Source: Methanosarcina sp. 2.H.T.1A.6 (lineage in GTDB: Archaea > Halobacteriota > Methanosarcinia > Methanosarcinales > Methanosarcinaceae). From it: a stretch of DNA of 64,000 nucleotides. The notes below the pieces were generated by a model. That model was given only the letters and a program-made list of their open reading frames with translations. It did no database searches and was not told where the DNA came from. Position 1 is the stretch's first letter. Every line of letters starts with the position of its first letter. A program made the translations under genes and the position numbers. Where the stretch lies: positions 1 through 64,000 of the forward strand of contig NZ_JJOY01000003.1 in assembly GCF_000979455.1 (NCBI RefSeq), in the 5' to 3' direction. Below, piece after piece: positions 21,661 to 30,554 of the stretch.

Positions 21661-22119
21661 TTATTTGTAAAAAAGATCAGGAGTGGCTGTGGCATGTTCG
21701 ATATTTTGCCTTGCCGTGGTAGGATAAACAAGGGTAAGTACGTCCGGCTGCATCCCTAACTTTCTGGAATCGTGCAGGTAAAATTCATCATTTTGTCTCG
21801 AGATGTTCTCGATATGGATCAAGGCACTGTTTCTTCCTATCCTCTCGACCTCCACATCCTCAAAATCAAAAAAGATCTCCTCTATTTTAGGCTCAAGATG
21901 CCTGCTCCCGAACAGGAACATATAAGCCTGGGCGAAGGGACTGAGGCTATATTTTACCTGGACGTCAGCATCCGTCTTATCAAATTCTATCACCATACTG
22001 TCAATATGGATATATTTCCCTTCCCTGAACTGCTCCATATTAACTCCGGGCGATACTTTTGAAGCCATTAAAGCAGCCGAGATTATCAGGGCGATTGTAA
22101 TTATAGCTTTTATTTTCAT
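21661..22119 (-). CDS. small membrane-anchored protein, unknown function
   Basis: 152 residues: an N-terminal hydrophobic segment (KAIITIALIISAALMASKV) that is a signal anchor or signal peptide, then a soluble mixed alpha/beta domain with FREGKYIHIDSMVIEFDKTDADV and FGSRHLEPKIEEIFFDFEDVEVERIG. No family recognised. An AT-rich TATA-like box about 30 bases upstream of the ATG suggests a very short leader. Likely faces the outside of the cell. Confidence 0.7.
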   Translation of the reverse strand: MKIKAIITIALIISAALMASKVSPGVNMEQFREGKYIHIDSMVIEFDKTDADVQVKYSLSPFAQAYMFLFGSRHLEPKIEEIFFDFEDVEVERIGRNSALIHIENISRQNDEFYLHDSRKLGMQPDVLTLVYPTTARQNIEHATATPDLFYK

Positions 22120-23066: not shown

Positions 23067-23846
23067 TTAAATCGCTTCGAGCCTTTTCCGCGTGAGGCTG
23101 ATTTCCTCCTTGAGCTTTTTGTTTCCAGGGTCTTTTTTGCTCAGGGTTTTCAGGATCTCAAGCGCTTTTTCGAAGTTTTCTTTTGCCTCTGCTTTTTGCC
23201 CTTTTTCTGAAAAGAGAGTCCCGAGGTTGTTGAGGGTCATTGCTGTGTCTGAGAGGTATTCCGGGTTTTCCGGGAAGTTTTTGAGGAGGAGTGCGTAGTT
23301 TTTGAGGGCGTTTTCATATTTGTCTTTTGCTTCTTCTGCCTGTCCCATTGTGAAAAGCAGTTCCCCGAGGTTGTTCTGGGTGTTTCCGGCGTACATCCGG
23401 TAGAATTCATTTTCGGGATGAAAATCGAGTTGTTTCTGGGAGATTTCGATGCCAGTTTCATAGCACTGCTGGGAGGAGGGAAAGTCGCCTGCCCTCTGGA
23501 AGATGTTTCCGAGGTTTCCAAGGTTGTTGAGGTTCATGTGGAGGGTATCAATGTAGAATTTGTTTTCCGGGTCGTCTGAGAGTAGTTTTACGCTGGTTGT
23601 TAAGGAGAAAGTGTAGGTCTCCATGGCTTCTTCAAGCCTACCCATGGACTGCAGCAGCTGCCCTCTTACTTTTAAGGTGTGAAACAGGATAGCTCCGTCT
23701 TTTGCTTCATGTGCGGCTTTTTCGGCTTTCCGGAGAGACTCAAGGGCTTCTTCGGACTTTCCTTTCTGCATCAGGTCCAGGGTTTCGTTGAAGCTTTTTA
23801 CTGCTTCCTCTCTCAATTTCTTGGGCTTCTCGGGTGTTTCGGGCAT
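23067..23846 (-). CDS. TPR-repeat protein
   Basis: 259 residues, about five tetratricopeptide repeats. Typical phrases: SEEALESLRKAEKAAHEAKD, GDFPSSQQCYETGIEISQKQL, YRMYAGNTQNNLGELLFTMG, YLSDTAMTLNNLGTLFSEKG and AKENFEKALEILKTL. No membrane segment; a cytoplasmic protein-protein interaction scaffold. CTATAAAA about 27 bases before the ATG and no ribosome binding site suggest a leaderless mRNA. It is a clear paralogue of the gene at 24567-25331, and the two flank a membrane protein related to LonB. Confidence 0.9.
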   Translation of the reverse strand: MPETPEKPKKLREEAVKSFNETLDLMQKGKSEEALESLRKAEKAAHEAKDGAILFHTLKVRGQLLQSMGRLEEAMETYTFSLTTSVKLLSDDPENKFYIDTLHMNLNNLGNLGNIFQRAGDFPSSQQCYETGIEISQKQLDFHPENEFYRMYAGNTQNNLGELLFTMGQAEEAKDKYENALKNYALLLKNFPENPEYLSDTAMTLNNLGTLFSEKGQKAEAKENFEKALEILKTLSKKDPGNKKLKEEISLTRKRLEAI

Positions 23847-24055: not shown

Positions 24056-24496
24056 ATGGACAGGGAAGCAGAGAAAGACAAAAGGAATATAAGTTCAGGC
24101 AGGGGTAGGAGCAAAGCTGCTGGAAAAAGCAAATATGAAAAACTTTACGTGATACTCGTTGGTATCTTCCTTGCAGCCATCTTTTTCTATACTTTTTACA
24201 TAGGCCAGTTTCTCTGGGGCATAGTCATTGATATCCTGGTCCTGAGGCTTTACTTCCTCATGCAACAGGAACAGCGTTATTTCATAGAGTCTGACCTCAA
24301 TGAAGAGGAAGCCGGGACCCCGCACGACCCACGGATGAAGCGGAAGATCAGGCTTGCAAATATCCTGATCACTTTATTTGTGCTCGGGATCATCGTCTAC
24401 TCATATTTATCTTTGCAGTTTATCTGGGGGATTGTAGTTGGACTAATGATCCTTCTCTATGTTCACATGTTGCTGTTCTCTGAGAAAAACCTGTAA
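24056..24496 (+). CDS. membrane protein made of two LonB-type transmembrane hairpins
   Basis: 146 residues from ATG at 24056, which has GGTAGGGGGG upstream; the frame extends back to 24005. After a charged N terminus come two similar hairpins: YVILVGIFLAAIFFYTFYIG with QFLWGIVIDILVL, and ANILITLFVLGIIVYSYLSL with QFIWGIVVGLMILL. The second is strikingly like the membrane insertion of LonB (LFVLGIIIYSYFVAQLLWGI), encoded 1.5 kb away. There are no catalytic motifs. It could assemble with the LonB membrane domain; that is inference. TPR paralogues lie on either side on the opposite strand. Confidence 0.8.
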   Translation: MDREAEKDKRNISSGRGRSKAAGKSKYEKLYVILVGIFLAAIFFYTFYIGQFLWGIVIDILVLRLYFLMQQEQRYFIESDLNEEEAGTPHDPRMKRKIRLANILITLFVLGIIVYSYLSLQFIWGIVVGLMILLYVHMLLFSEKNL

Positions 24497-24522
24497 GGCA
24501 AAGCTGTAAGATAAATCTGTAA

Positions 24523-24560
24523 CTGCACTATCAAAGACCTTCTGCACTATCAAAGACCTT
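24523..24560. repeat. 19-bp tandem repeat
   Basis: Two perfect copies of CTGCACTATCAAAGACCTT between two convergent genes, ending seven bases before the stop codon of the downstream TPR gene. Confidence 0.9.
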
Positions 24561-24566
24561 CGAGCC

Positions 24567-25331
24567 TTAAATTCCTTCCAGCCTTTCCCTTGTCAGGGTG
24601 ATGGCTTCTTTGATTTTTTCGTTTTCAGGCTGCTGGGCTAGCAGATTTTCCTGCATTTTGAGGGCTCTTTTAAGGTTAGTTTTTGCAATTTCGGCTTTTT
24701 CAGGTTCCTGCTGTTTGAGGCAACTTCCTAACTGGCTGAGCGCGACTGAAAGTTCTGCCTGATAACCAAGGTTTTCGGGCTTCTCATTAAATAGTTTTTC
24801 GTAGGTTTCGACTGCTTCATTAAGGATTTCACAGGCGGTATCCAGGTAACCGGACTCTGTGAGGAGAGAACCGTAGTTATTCAGGTTTTCTCCGGCATAA
24901 GAATGGAAAACAGCATTTTCAGGGTTCTTTGTGATAAGGTCCGAATAGATTTTGCGGGCGCAGGAATAGGATTCGGCAGCCCTGTCAATTTCTCCATTCT
25001 TTCTAAGGAGGTTTCCTGTATTGCTAAGGGTTGTACCCATATAATGCTGGTAATCGGCATTTTCCGGGTCGGTTTTCAGGAGTTCGGAACCTACTTCAAG
25101 GGCTCTTTCATAGGTTTCAAGGGCCTGGTCATACTCTTTTGCCGAGTAGAGGATACCTCCGCGAGTAAAGAGAATATAGTAAAGAGCATCTGTGGATTTC
25201 GCCTGCCTTGCAGACTTTTCAGCTTTATCCAGGGTTTCGAGGGCTTTATCCAGTTTGCCTTTCTTGATCTGGGTTACAGCACTGTGAATCTGTTTCAGGA
25301 GGAGAAGATTTTTTACCTTGCTTCTGGACAT
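24567..25331 (-). CDS. TPR-repeat protein, paralogue of 23067-23846
   Basis: 254 residues with about five TPRs: KLDKALETLDKAEKSARQAK, EYDQALETYERALEVGSELL, YQHYMGTTLSNTGNLLRKNG, FHSYAGENLNNYGSLLTESG and the end LTRERLEGI, which echoes LTRKRLEAI of its paralogue. GGGGAT precedes the ATG. Cytoplasmic scaffold with unknown partner. It is divergently transcribed from lonB, sharing a 458-bp promoter region. Confidence 0.9.
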   Translation of the reverse strand: MSRSKVKNLLLLKQIHSAVTQIKKGKLDKALETLDKAEKSARQAKSTDALYYILFTRGGILYSAKEYDQALETYERALEVGSELLKTDPENADYQHYMGTTLSNTGNLLRKNGEIDRAAESYSCARKIYSDLITKNPENAVFHSYAGENLNNYGSLLTESGYLDTACEILNEAVETYEKLFNEKPENLGYQAELSVALSQLGSCLKQQEPEKAEIAKTNLKRALKMQENLLAQQPENEKIKEAITLTRERLEGI

Positions 25332-25789: not shown

Positions 25790-27898
25790 ATGGTGTATAA
25801 TAATAATCAGAACATAGACGGGTCTTCGGAGAATATGGACAGGAAATCCCCTGAAGTGGACGAGACTGTTCCAAATATGGACAGGAAATCCCCTGAAGTG
25901 GATGAAGCTGACCCAAAAGTAGACACGTCTGCGGCCGACCAGACGAAGGATGCGCCTACTCAGGTCATGGCCGAGTCTGAGTTAAGTGATGAAATAGACG
26001 AAGATGACATAGGCTTCCAGTTTGAAGACACTTCAAACATAGAGGTCCCAAAACTTCTTATTGACCAGGTGTTGGGACAGGAACATGCAGTGGAAGTCGT
26101 AAGGAAGGCTGCCAGCCAGAGACGGCACATCATGATGATAGGGACTCCGGGAACAGGAAAGTCCCTGCTTGCAAAAGCAATGGCAGAGCTTCTCCCAAAA
26201 GAAGAGCTCAAGGATATCCTTGTATATCCTAACCTGGAAGACCTTAACAATCCCAAGATCAGAGAGGTTCCTGCAGGGAAGGGCAGAGAAATTGTCATGG
26301 CTCACAAGATGGAGGCAAGAAAGAAAGCCCAGGCCCGGAACATGCTTATGATGCTCTTTGTTTTGGGTATTATCATCTATTCTTACTTCGTCGCCCAGCT
26401 GCTCTGGGGTATCATTGCAGGCATTATGATTCTCATGTTAACCCGCCAGTTCCTTCCCAAAGAGGAAATGATGATTCCGAAAATGGCGGTTTCAAATTAT
26501 GACAAGGAGCACGCACCCTACATCGATGCAACCGGAGCCCACGCAGGAGCTCTGCTTGGGGATGTCAGGCACGACCCCTTCCAGTCTGGAGGGCTTGAGA
26601 CCCCTGCACACGACAGGGTAGAAGCCGGAGACATCCACAAAGCCCACAAAGGGGTGCTTTTCATTGACGAAATCAATACTCTCAGGCTTGAGTCCCAGCA
26701 GAGCCTCCTGACTGCACTTCAGGAAAGGGAATACCCGATTACCGGGCAGTCCGAGAGAAGCTCGGGAGCTCTTGTTAAGACCGAGCCTGTACCCTGCGAC
26801 TTCATTATGGTCTCTGCAGGGAACCTGGATGCAGTACAGAAAATGCACCCTGCACTCAGGTCAAGGATAAAAGGCTACGGGTACGAGGTCTACATGAGAG
26901 ATTCCATGGAAGACAGTCCCGAAAACCGGAAGAAACTTGTCCGCTTCGTTGCCCAGGAAGTCGTCAGGGACGGGCACATCCCTCACTTTGACGAAGGTGC
27001 AGTAGAAGATATAATCAGGGAAGCCAGAAGGCGTGCAGGCAGGAAAGGCCACCTTACTCTGAAGCTCCGTGACCTTGGCGGGCTTGTGCGTGTTGCAGGA
27101 GACATTGCCCACTCCGAAGGGGCTCCAATTACAACTTCCGAGCATGTGCTTGCGGCAAAGAGGATCGCAAGGTCCATCGAACAGCAGCTTGCAGACAGCT
27201 ACCTCGAACAGCGCAGGGACTACGAGTCCTTCATGAGGAAAGGTTCTGCTGTGGGTAGAGTCAACGGGCTTGCAGTTATGGGCGGAGATTCAGGAATCGT
27301 GCTTCCCATAGTATCCGAAGTCACTCCTGCTCTTTCCGGAGCCGAAGGGCGAATTATTGCAACGGGCAAGCTCAAGACCATTGCAAAAGAAGCGGTGCAG
27401 AATGTATCTGCCGTGATCAAGAACATGACCGGCACGGACATTTCCCGCCACGATGTCCACATCCAGTTCGTAGGGACATATGAAGGCGTGGAAGGGGACA
27501 GTGCATCGATTTCCATAGCAACTGCCGTAATCTCTGCGATCGAAAAGATCCCTGTGGACCAGACTGTCGCAATGACGGGTTCTCTTTCTGTCAGGGGAGA
27601 TGTCCTGCCTGTTGGCGGGGTCACCTACAAGATCGAAGCTGCAGCCCGGGCCGGCATGAAGAAAGTCATTATCCCAAAAGCCAATGAGGCAGATGTTCTT
27701 GTTGAAAAGGCATACAGGGATAAGATCCAGATCATTCCTGTTTCCTCTATTGCGGAAGTAATGGAACACAGCCTTGTGGGCCCAAAAAAGAACACAATTA
27801 TCGAAAAACTCAAAAATATTACAAAACTAAGTTTCGATATTCCGGAAGTATCACCCGCTTCCGTACAGTCCATGAACCTCTTCGGGTGCAGGAACTAA
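25790..27898 (+). CDS. lonB: membrane-bound ATP-dependent Lon protease, archaeal LonB
   Basis: 702 residues. It degrades unfolded and regulatory proteins at the inner face of the membrane. Seen: an acidic N-terminal tail with two 14-residue repeats (NMDRKSPEVDE), Walker A GTPGTGKS at 118-125, a two-helix membrane insertion at about 184-218, Walker B GVLFIDEI at 288-295, and the protease domain with catalytic Ser571 in EGDSAS and Lys614 in TYKIEAA. The membrane insertion between Walker A and B is diagnostic for LonB. tldD follows after two bases, so lonB, tldD and tldE form an operon. Confidence 0.97.
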   Translation: MVYNNNQNIDGSSENMDRKSPEVDETVPNMDRKSPEVDEADPKVDTSAADQTKDAPTQVMAESELSDEIDEDDIGFQFEDTSNIEVPKLLIDQVLGQEHAVEVVRKAASQRRHIMMIGTPGTGKSLLAKAMAELLPKEELKDILVYPNLEDLNNPKIREVPAGKGREIVMAHKMEARKKAQARNMLMMLFVLGIIIYSYFVAQLLWGIIAGIMILMLTRQFLPKEEMMIPKMAVSNYDKEHAPYIDATGAHAGALLGDVRHDPFQSGGLETPAHDRVEAGDIHKAHKGVLFIDEINTLRLESQQSLLTALQEREYPITGQSERSSGALVKTEPVPCDFIMVSAGNLDAVQKMHPALRSRIKGYGYEVYMRDSMEDSPENRKKLVRFVAQEVVRDGHIPHFDEGAVEDIIREARRRAGRKGHLTLKLRDLGGLVRVAGDIAHSEGAPITTSEHVLAAKRIARSIEQQLADSYLEQRRDYESFMRKGSAVGRVNGLAVMGGDSGIVLPIVSEVTPALSGAEGRIIATGKLKTIAKEAVQNVSAVIKNMTGTDISRHDVHIQFVGTYEGVEGDSASISIATAVISAIEKIPVDQTVAMTGSLSVRGDVLPVGGVTYKIEAAARAGMKKVIIPKANEADVLVEKAYRDKIQIIPVSSIAEVMEHSLVGPKKNTIIEKLKNITKLSFDIPEVSPASVQSMNLFGCRN

Positions 27899-27900
27899 TT

Positions 27901-29241
27901 ATGAAAGGCATTATGCAGGACATAAAGTTTTATGACTGCAGGGTGATAGAAGGCAGTTCCACTTCTGTCATCCTGGATAACGGAAAGATCGAAGAAATAT
28001 CCAGAAACTTCACAAGGGGGGCCGGAGTAAGGGCCCTCTGCGGAGGTTCCTGGGGTTATACGGCTGTTGAAGGGGATATCGACCTCAAGCGAGGGGTTGA
28101 TGCTGCCTCAAAACTTGCTTTTTCTATGAATGCGAGCACCCCTAAAGAAGAAGTCGAACTCGCAGCCGTAAGTTCTCCTGATGTAAAGGACCTTCCTGAA
28201 GTCAGGATCGACCCGAGAGACATTGCAATTGAAGAAAAAGTAGACCTTTTGAAGAGTATTGAAGAGCATGCAAGGATTGCAGGCGTTCACAGTACAAAGG
28301 TAATGTATCTCGAATCCGAATTTAAAGTCCAGTACCGAAGTTCCGAAGGTCTGGAATGTGAATATGAACTTTTGAATGTCGGTTTTGCAGTTTCTGCCGT
28401 TGCTTCGGAAAACGGCGTCTACCAGGCAGGTAGAGAAAGCCGTTTCGGGTATGGTTATGAGCTTTTTGAGAAAGAAAACGTCCTCGAACTTGCCGGAAAT
28501 GCAGGAAAGACCGCAATTGAGCTCTTGAAGGCTAAAACCCCTAAAGGTGGAGAAATGCCTGTAGTGCTTGATCAGGAACTTGCAGGAGTATTTGCCCACG
28601 AAGCTGTAGGACATGCTTCGGAAGCCGACCTTGTGCTTGAAGGGGATTCCATTCTTGAAAACAGAATCGGAGAACAGATTGCGTCCCCGCTGATAACGAT
28701 GATAGATGACCCTACTCTGCATGAATTCGGGTATTATCCCTTTGATGCCGAAGGTTCCGAATCAAAAAGGACCGAAATAATCAGGGACGGGGTTTTCAAT
28801 TCCTATCTTCACTCCAGGGAAACCGCAGCCAAACTCGGGGGAACTCCCGGAAACTGCAGGGCTCAGGGCTATTCCATGCCTGTTGTCAGGATGAGCAATA
28901 CCTTCATTGACAACGGTGATTCTAAATTTGAAGAGATGCTGGAGGACGTCAGAGACGGCATGTACCTTGTAGGGTCAAGAGGCGGACAGGTAAACACCGG
29001 AGAAGGCATATTCCAGTTCAACGCCGAAAAAGGGTACCTTATAAAGAACGGGGAGCTTTCCGGGCTCTTAAGGGATGTCTCCCTCTCAGGGAATACTCTT
29101 GAGATCCTGAACCATGTAACACATGTGGGAAATGACCTGAAAATGACTGCAGGAAGATGTGGAAAATCCGGACAGCTTGTGCCTGTGTCTGATGGTTCTC
29201 CTCATATTGCAATCTCAAAAGCCCTTATAGGAGGCGCCTGA
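27901..29241 (+). CDS. tldD: TldD-type metalloprotease subunit
   Basis: 446 residues from ATG at 27901, three bases after the lonB stop codon. It carries the zinc-protease motif HEAVGHASEAD, as in TldD, and FGYYPFDAEGSESKRTEIIRDG and GGQVNTGEGIFQFNAEKGYLIKNGE, typical of the family. TldD and TldE form a heterodimer that cleaves unfolded or leader peptides into the cytoplasm. The partner gene follows after two bases. Placement after lonB links two cytoplasmic proteolysis systems in one operon. Confidence 0.93.
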   Translation: MKGIMQDIKFYDCRVIEGSSTSVILDNGKIEEISRNFTRGAGVRALCGGSWGYTAVEGDIDLKRGVDAASKLAFSMNASTPKEEVELAAVSSPDVKDLPEVRIDPRDIAIEEKVDLLKSIEEHARIAGVHSTKVMYLESEFKVQYRSSEGLECEYELLNVGFAVSAVASENGVYQAGRESRFGYGYELFEKENVLELAGNAGKTAIELLKAKTPKGGEMPVVLDQELAGVFAHEAVGHASEADLVLEGDSILENRIGEQIASPLITMIDDPTLHEFGYYPFDAEGSESKRTEIIRDGVFNSYLHSRETAAKLGGTPGNCRAQGYSMPVVRMSNTFIDNGDSKFEEMLEDVRDGMYLVGSRGGQVNTGEGIFQFNAEKGYLIKNGELSGLLRDVSLSGNTLEILNHVTHVGNDLKMTAGRCGKSGQLVPVSDGSPHIAISKALIGGA

Positions 29242-29243
29242 AA

Positions 29244-30554
29244 GTGTACGAGCTTGCAAGAAAAGCCCTGAAACTGGCAGAAGAAGCAGGGGCTGAAGAA
29301 GCTGAAATTTATTACGCCGCAAACCATTCAACAGGCGTCAATTTCAAAAAGGATTCACTTGAAAACGCTAAAGACCGTTTCTCGGAAGGCCTGGGAATCC
29401 GTGCCATTGTAAACGGTGCAGTGGGCTTTGCCAGCACCAACTTTGCAGGAGACCTCGAGAACGCCGTAAAGATTGCGGTTGCAGAAGCCAGGGTCCGGGA
29501 AAATGATCCTGACTGGGTAGCCCTTCCTTCTAACGGAAAATACCCTCAGGTCTCGGGCATCTTCGATAAAAAGATTGAAGCTCTTGAACTTGAAGAATGC
29601 ATTGGCTATGCCGTAGAACTTGTTGAAGGAACAAAAGAGATGCCAGGTACGCTCCCTACTTCAGGCGGCTTTACCCGTTCAAAGAGCAGGCAGCTTATCC
29701 TGAACACAAACGGGATCGAAATTGAAGAAGAATCCACAGCAGTTTCCGGTTTTGTTGATGTGATAACCGTAAACGGGGACACCTCTACAGCCTATGACTT
29801 TGCGGTTTCCCGTTCCCTTGACATTGACTTTTTTGCGCTCGGGAAAAATGCTTCCGATCTTGCCCTGAAATCCAGGGGCGGAATAAAAATAGAGCCGCAG
29901 AAAACCGATGTTATCTTTCATCCTTTTGCTTTCTCGGACATCCTTGAAGAAGCCCTTGCCCCTTCGATTGACGCAGACAACGTGCAAAAAGGAAGGTCAG
30001 GCCTTATAGGGAAGCTCGGGGAAGAAATCGCTGTCCCGGAACTGAGCATTTACGATGACGGGCTGGTTGAAGCAGGCATAGATACCTCGGCCTCGGATGA
30101 TGAAGGTGTTCCTTCACAGCATACCACAGTTATTGAAAACGGTGTGCTTGAAACCTACCTATATGACAGCTATACCGCAGGAAAAGCCGGTGTGAAAAGC
30201 ACAGGAAACGGCTCAAGGTCCTCCTATACAAGCCCTCCCTCAGTAGGGCTCAGGAACTTTGTTATCGACTACCCGCAGGAAGATATTATTGCAAATACTA
30301 CCTCCGGAGTTTTCGTAAACACGATTATCGGCGCCCATACTGCAAACTCAATTTCCGGGGATTTTTCCGTAGAAGCCAGAAATGCCTTCACAATCAAGGA
30401 CGGAGCCCTGGATAAGCCTATAAAATCCCTCATGATCTCAGGCAACGCCTTCGAACTCCTGAAGAACATCACAGGTGCAGGCTTTGACGTAAGGAAGGTC
30501 GGAGGCATAATCACGCCTTCAATCCGGGTTTCCGGCATGAGTGTAATAGGATAA
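29244..30554 (+). CDS. tldE: TldE/PmbA-type metalloprotease partner subunit
   Basis: 436 residues from GTG at 29244. It is homologous to TldD but lacks the HExxxH zinc motif, as expected for TldE/PmbA. Family phrases: YYAANHSTGVNFKKDSLENA, LGIRAIVNGAVGFASTNF, DDEGVPSQHTTVIENGVLETYLYDSYTA, GAHTANSISGDFSVEARNAF. Works with TldD in peptide degradation. A strong inverted-repeat terminator follows. Confidence 0.93.
   Translation: MYELARKALKLAEEAGAEEAEIYYAANHSTGVNFKKDSLENAKDRFSEGLGIRAIVNGAVGFASTNFAGDLENAVKIAVAEARVRENDPDWVALPSNGKYPQVSGIFDKKIEALELEECIGYAVELVEGTKEMPGTLPTSGGFTRSKSRQLILNTNGIEIEEESTAVSGFVDVITVNGDTSTAYDFAVSRSLDIDFFALGKNASDLALKSRGGIKIEPQKTDVIFHPFAFSDILEEALAPSIDADNVQKGRSGLIGKLGEEIAVPELSIYDDGLVEAGIDTSASDDEGVPSQHTTVIENGVLETYLYDSYTAGKAGVKSTGNGSRSSYTSPPSVGLRNFVIDYPQEDIIANTTSGVFVNTIIGAHTANSISGDFSVEARNAFTIKDGALDKPIKSLMISGNAFELLKNITGAGFDVRKVGGIITPSIRVSGMSVIG

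Follow-up and report, generated by a model that had tools for sequence, protein, structure and literature searches.

SpoVM and HflK/C are membrane modulators of bacterial FtsH. Lambda CIII is described as a small protein that acts on bacterial FtsH (PMC1838920). LonB, the membrane AAA+ protease of archaea, carries within its AAA+ module the membrane segment that anchors it; it is essential in Haloferax volcanii, and little is known of its control and of its targets, few of which have been named (PMC9263693). Mass spectrometry has shown that the LonB of Methanosarcina mazei (MM0128) is expressed (PMC4350412). The literature searched, consisting mostly of papers available without subscription, contained no LonB-anchor protein and no archaeal LonB adaptor, and searching by locus tag for the M. 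mazei neighbours MM0125–MM0127 returned unrelated papers only.

We analysed a 64,000-nucleotide stretch of the genome of Methanosarcina sp. 2.H.T.1A.6 (the window), in which a gene near lonB encodes a small membrane protein made of two tandem hairpins, the second of which resembles the membrane anchor of LonB. The elements of this locus are as follows.

23067..23846, minus strand: outer TPR paralogue, not always beside DH
24056..24496, plus strand: DH (the name used here), ORF for a 146-residue double-hairpin membrane protein; 29 intact genomes; dN/dS 0.05–0.35
24146..24265, plus strand: DH hairpin 1 (residues ~31–70), assigned to a broader hairpin class; invariant G50, Q51, W54 and G55
24266..24358, plus strand: DH charged linker (residues ~71–101), predicted to be cytosolic; conserved E..YF...LNEEEAGTPHDP.MKRK.RLA
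24335..24475, plus strand: DH hairpin 2 with its basic lead-in (residues 94–140), LonB-type
24567..25331, minus strand: inner TPR protein gene, between DH and lonB
25790..27898, plus strand: lonB, membrane-bound Lon protease (TIGR00764, 943.7 bits against a cut-off of 516.6)
26303..26473, plus strand: LonB membrane hairpin inserted in the AAA+ module, counterpart of DH hairpin 2

The DH start codon in the window ORF is an ATG preceded by a GGTAGGGGGG stretch. The protein has a basic N-terminus and four predicted membrane helices, and its hydropathy profile resolves two pairs of hydrophobic stretches at residues ~31–70 and 102–142. On the same strand, lonB starts ~1.3 kb past the end of DH, the distance given in the initial annotation. 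The inner and outer TPR proteins of the window are paralogues sharing 35% identity. Searches of DH against Pfam and NCBIfam returned no family above cut-off; weak matches to Coa3_cc, DUF1673 and others fell below it, and membership of DUF1673 (PF07895) was rejected at 15.4 bits against a gathering cut-off of 30.4 (13.6 bits in the genome search). A profile search of the PDB with DH gave no match, and AlphaFold2 models of DH are too poor to interpret (mean pLDDT of 65 with 13 sequences and 59 with 18 sequences; pTM of 0.34 and 0.28, respectively).

The surroundings of the locus hold further genes. Directly 3′ of lonB lie tldD- and pmbA/tldE-type genes (27886–30554), in an order that recurs in the other Methanosarcinales loci examined. 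A 152-residue protein, probably secreted and matching no Pfam or NCBIfam family, is encoded at 21661–22119 (minus strand) and occurs in 106 of the 111 genomes of the family; its gene is an older neighbour of lonB than DH and the divergent, direct neighbour in several other genera. A small Zn-ribbon protein (PF09855; 22470–22679, plus strand) is encoded between this gene and that of the outer TPR protein.

Hairpin 2 is identical to the window's own LonB at 24 of 55 positions (44%; BLASTP, 56.6 bits, E = 2e-14) and hairpin 1 at 20 of 70 (40 bits, E = 1e-8). The core common to hairpin 2 and LonB reads LFVLGII..YSY...Q..WGI..G.MIL, and the likeness extends into the lead-in, where the invariant N102 of DH corresponds to the Asn of the LonB RNM motif, invariant in both families. 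When the 57-residue LonB hairpin was searched against the whole of its own genome, LonB itself (E = 2e-32) was followed by hairpin 2 (2e-11) and hairpin 1 (5e-5), with the next match only at E = 0.13. In a shuffle test against LonB that preserved composition inside the flank, helix and turn blocks, the z values were 10.3 for hairpin 2 and 5.8 for hairpin 1, and 0 of 3000 shuffles reached either. Profile–profile comparison of DH with LonB (hhalign) aligned residues 94–140 with a probability of 98.2 and E = 5e-14. Hairpin 2 therefore qualifies by both hhalign and BLASTP as a LonB-type membrane hairpin of the TIGR00764 protease. DH as a whole lacks the AAA+ module with Walker A/B motifs and the S16 Ser–Lys protease domain (TIGR00764, 10.1 bits against 516.6).

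These results bear out the initial annotation in its claim that the second hairpin matches the LonB insertion specifically, with no shuffle coming close. Generic hydrophobic composition, the explanation that it had weighed against this claim, does not account for the likeness: the resemblance of hairpin 2 to LonB is more than compositional. Its description of the match as almost word for word fits the core motif but not the full 55-residue stretch, and its view of DH as two LonB-type hairpins applies to hairpin 2 and only loosely to hairpin 1. Hairpin 1 scores 88 against DUF1673/PLDc_N-type hairpins, 69 against hairpin 2 and at most 68 against LonB, and groups in the tree with DUF1673/PLDc_N and other non-LonB hairpins; judged from these comparisons, it is less LonB-like and a member of a broader hairpin class. 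In summary, hairpin 2 shares with the LonB hairpin (TIGR00764; MM0128 in M. mazei) the core motif and the basic lead-in with its invariant Asn, and the predicted topology of DH, entering from and returning to the cytosol, is compatible with that of LonB, whereas DH differs from LonB in having two tandem hairpins and neither an AAA+ nor a protease domain.

DH is intact in 24 of the 31 Methanosarcina (g1) genomes, frameshifted in G015, truncated in G019 (L155) and missing from five (G011, G016, G017, G024 and G028); the genomes in which it is absent or broken are partly drafts, with short lonB contigs in G011, G016 and G024, and a copy of DH was not found elsewhere in these three. In the sister genera, DH is carried by all four genomes of g5 and by one of the two of g4 (G034, whose copy is 48% identical). 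Pairwise dN/dS values of ~0.05–0.35 indicate purifying selection, and DH is a real gene. It is nevertheless dispensable, because it has been lost or broken in seven of the 31 Methanosarcina genomes with lonB retained. The idea that losing DH goes with an altered LonB hairpin was rejected, as G011, G016, G017, G019 and G024 lack an intact DH and have an ordinary LonB turn. In G028 (L077, L149), where DH is lost, the LonB hairpin turn AQLLWG is replaced by YELIWG, which is not so in the other genomes that lost DH.

In every g1, g4 and g5 genome holding DH, the gene lies on the lonB strand with lonB downstream, and 1.6–4.4 kb separate it from the codons of the LonB hairpin. The inner TPR gene is found between the two in all 28 intact-DH genomes tested (it is split in G039), none of which has DH without it; this gene is confined to the three genera of DH and persists in four genomes that lack DH. 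The outer TPR gene is not beside DH in G004 and G034. Both of the TPR paralogues initially noted as flanking DH on the other strand are present in the window, but the conserved neighbour is the inner one only. The other genera examined have lonB, with no full-length DH match and no inner-TPR-type gene, and DH is present in 3 of the 14 genera of the family. Co-occurrence with lonB, which had been envisaged across Methanosarcinales, does not extend that far; a stable DH–lonB pair with a TPR gene between them is instead kept in Methanosarcina and two sister genera, which also disposes of the concern that the pair might lack conservation in related genomes.

The extent of the N-terminus varies within Methanosarcina. 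In M. mazei-like species, the DH frame begins with an ATG codon (MDRE...). The M. barkeri-like group (L015–L027) has stops or lacks a usable in-frame start upstream, near TM1, and its codon for residue 36 is GTG in all members but one, where it is ATG; the majority of M. mazei-like species carry GTT, GTA or ATT/ATC at this position. The start of DH probably moved to residue 36 in the M. barkeri-like group, so that the conserved core would consist of the two hairpins.

Gene order provides a view of how the locus arose. In g9, g11, g12 and g13, the gene for the 152-residue secreted protein adjoins lonB directly and is divergently transcribed, whereas in G034 the order is secreted-protein gene, DH, TPR and lonB. 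The DH and TPR genes were therefore probably inserted as a pair at this site, entering beside lonB in an ancestor of the three genera. The pairwise scores of hairpin 2 amount to 116 against Methanosarcina LonB, at most 96 against LonB of other genera and at most 97 against non-LonB hairpins. In a 48-column tree, hairpin 2 forms one clade placed with the LonB of Methanosarcina and of G034, and the LonB sequences of other genera lie beyond a branch supported at 95/94. Hairpin 2, in our view, likely originated as a copy of the LonB membrane anchor that arose beside lonB in the common ancestor of the three genera, and we infer that the copying ran from lonB to DH. Such copying in place is the probable, simplest account of hairpin 2, and we put it no more firmly because the hairpin tree is short, with several long-branched rows and limited internal support. 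No relatives of DH were found in viral contigs or plasmids.

We favour, as a tentative reading that falls somewhat short of probable when contact with LonB is included, the view that DH is a copy of the LonB anchor encoded next to lonB and acts as a LonB partner. Homology and the charge pattern suggest that DH spans the membrane with its two termini and its linker on the cytosolic side. This would match LonB, in which the two ends of the membrane hairpin join the AAA+ core. Having kept the LonB packing residues and lost the AAA+ part, hairpin 2 could pack next to the ring of helices in the LonB hexamer or inside it, and DH positioned at this ring may influence the assembly state of the protease or the entry of membrane substrates. 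The part facing a substrate or the neighbouring TPR protein, itself possibly a cytosolic scaffold, might then be made up of hairpin 1 and the conserved linker. Entry of DH into the LonB ring and its action as a decoy or an adaptor, as proposed in the initial annotation, are putative, and the proposal finds partial support. A fuller version, in which a copy of the LonB anchor in a separate gene gained a second hairpin by fusion and, with a TPR partner that entered at the same site, serves today as a lineage-specific LonB-regulating subunit, strikes us as rather doubtful.

Several observations favour this reading, taken together with the origin of hairpin 2: among the matches of the LonB hairpin in the genome other than LonB itself, hairpin 2 ranks first, with a likeness that takes in the lead-in; it groups with the LonB of Methanosarcina and G034; DH stays beside lonB with the inner TPR gene between them; the two genes were probably inserted at this site; DH is under purifying selection; and LonB is expressed in M. 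mazei. Against this reading stand the occurrence of similar hairpins in other small proteins of the family that are unlinked to lonB, the loss of DH in several species, the poor AlphaFold2 models, and the intervening opposite-strand TPR gene, because of which DH and lonB do not form one operon. It is a real possibility, nearly on a par with the partner reading although one we would not call probable, that hairpin 2 was copied from lonB and DH then became independent, working in the membrane alone or with the TPR protein, for example in sensing or scaffolding, without contacting LonB, so that the linkage is a relic. The separate transcription of DH and lonB is consistent with such independence, as are the identical range of genera of DH and the TPR gene, the derivation of hairpin 1 from another class, the conserved linker of DH, which has no counterpart in LonB, and the dispensability of DH in several species. 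Against independence stands the place of DH beside lonB, maintained in every genome with DH, including G034 at 48% identity, despite changing surroundings.

The hairpin class to which hairpin 1 is assigned is widespread. Its turn, YSxYxGQLLWGI, is found in small Methanosarcinaceae membrane proteins without link to lonB, and in fusion proteins the hairpin precedes a Yip1 domain or a soluble tail; it is a reused membrane module in Methanosarcinales. Examples include hairpins joined to a Yip1 domain, DUF1673/PLDc_N proteins and an unnamed soluble tail (L135, L064, L068, L118 and L120). The small DUF1673 (PF07895)/PLDc_N-type proteins of Methanosarcinaceae have the turn YxFYIGQLLWGI in common with hairpin 1, whereas DH has no PLDc_N part. 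Proteins of G137 (L117) and G422 (L116 and L134) resemble DH in possessing two tandem hairpins, a length of 137–175 residues and WGI turns, and differ from it in that their hairpins are not LonB-nested and that the genes of G137 and L134 are not beside lonB, the L116 copy lying downstream of lonB on the opposite strand. The L117 protein (2039–2470, a 144-residue frame), from a distant genome of the phylum, is 26% identical to DH over 91 residues. Of the two proteins of G422, a genome of the same order, the one at L116 (9419–9931, minus strand) is encoded ~4 kb downstream of lonB, the other being that of L134; both have a TLIWGI or TLLWGI turn, as does the LonB of that lineage.

This breadth raises the alternative that DH and LonB draw on a common hairpin class without any copying from lonB, the Y-S-x-Y-x-G-Q-L-L-W-G-I likeness reflecting a common packing motif, old descent or convergence. 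The presence of the hairpin in Yip1, DUF1673/PLDc_N and other small proteins and the unlinked double-hairpin proteins of G137 and G422 agree with it, and hairpins of the wider class also beat shuffles, although they were picked as search matches and their scores are inflated by this selection. We nonetheless find this alternative unlikely: Methanosarcina LonB is closer to hairpin 2 than are all non-LonB hairpins and the LonB of other genera, the likeness runs on into the lead-in, and no other protein of this genome comes close to the LonB hairpin. Inhibition of the kind exerted by CIII or SpoVM on FtsH, in which DH would replace a LonB hairpin contact or be degraded and thereby lower LonB activity, would suit the resemblance to the target's own membrane part, the small size of DH and its existence as a cellular copy only, with no viral or plasmid homologues found, but is very improbable for a protein that is fixed in most species and not accessory.

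For DH as a LonB partner, the parallel that we propose with CIII, SpoVM and HflK/C lies in the action of a small membrane protein on an AAA+ protease of the membrane. Unlike CIII and SpoVM, DH resembles the anchor of the protease itself; the likeness to these modulators is functional, by analogy, and we claim no sequence relation. A conserved gene beside lonB that encodes a copy of the LonB anchor is a specific candidate partner for this protease, and it occurs in a group open to genetic work. Should DH make no contact with LonB, the locus would still be a clear example of the insertion of new genes for membrane proteins next to a conserved protease gene, and of the reuse of one membrane hairpin in proteins that are not related.
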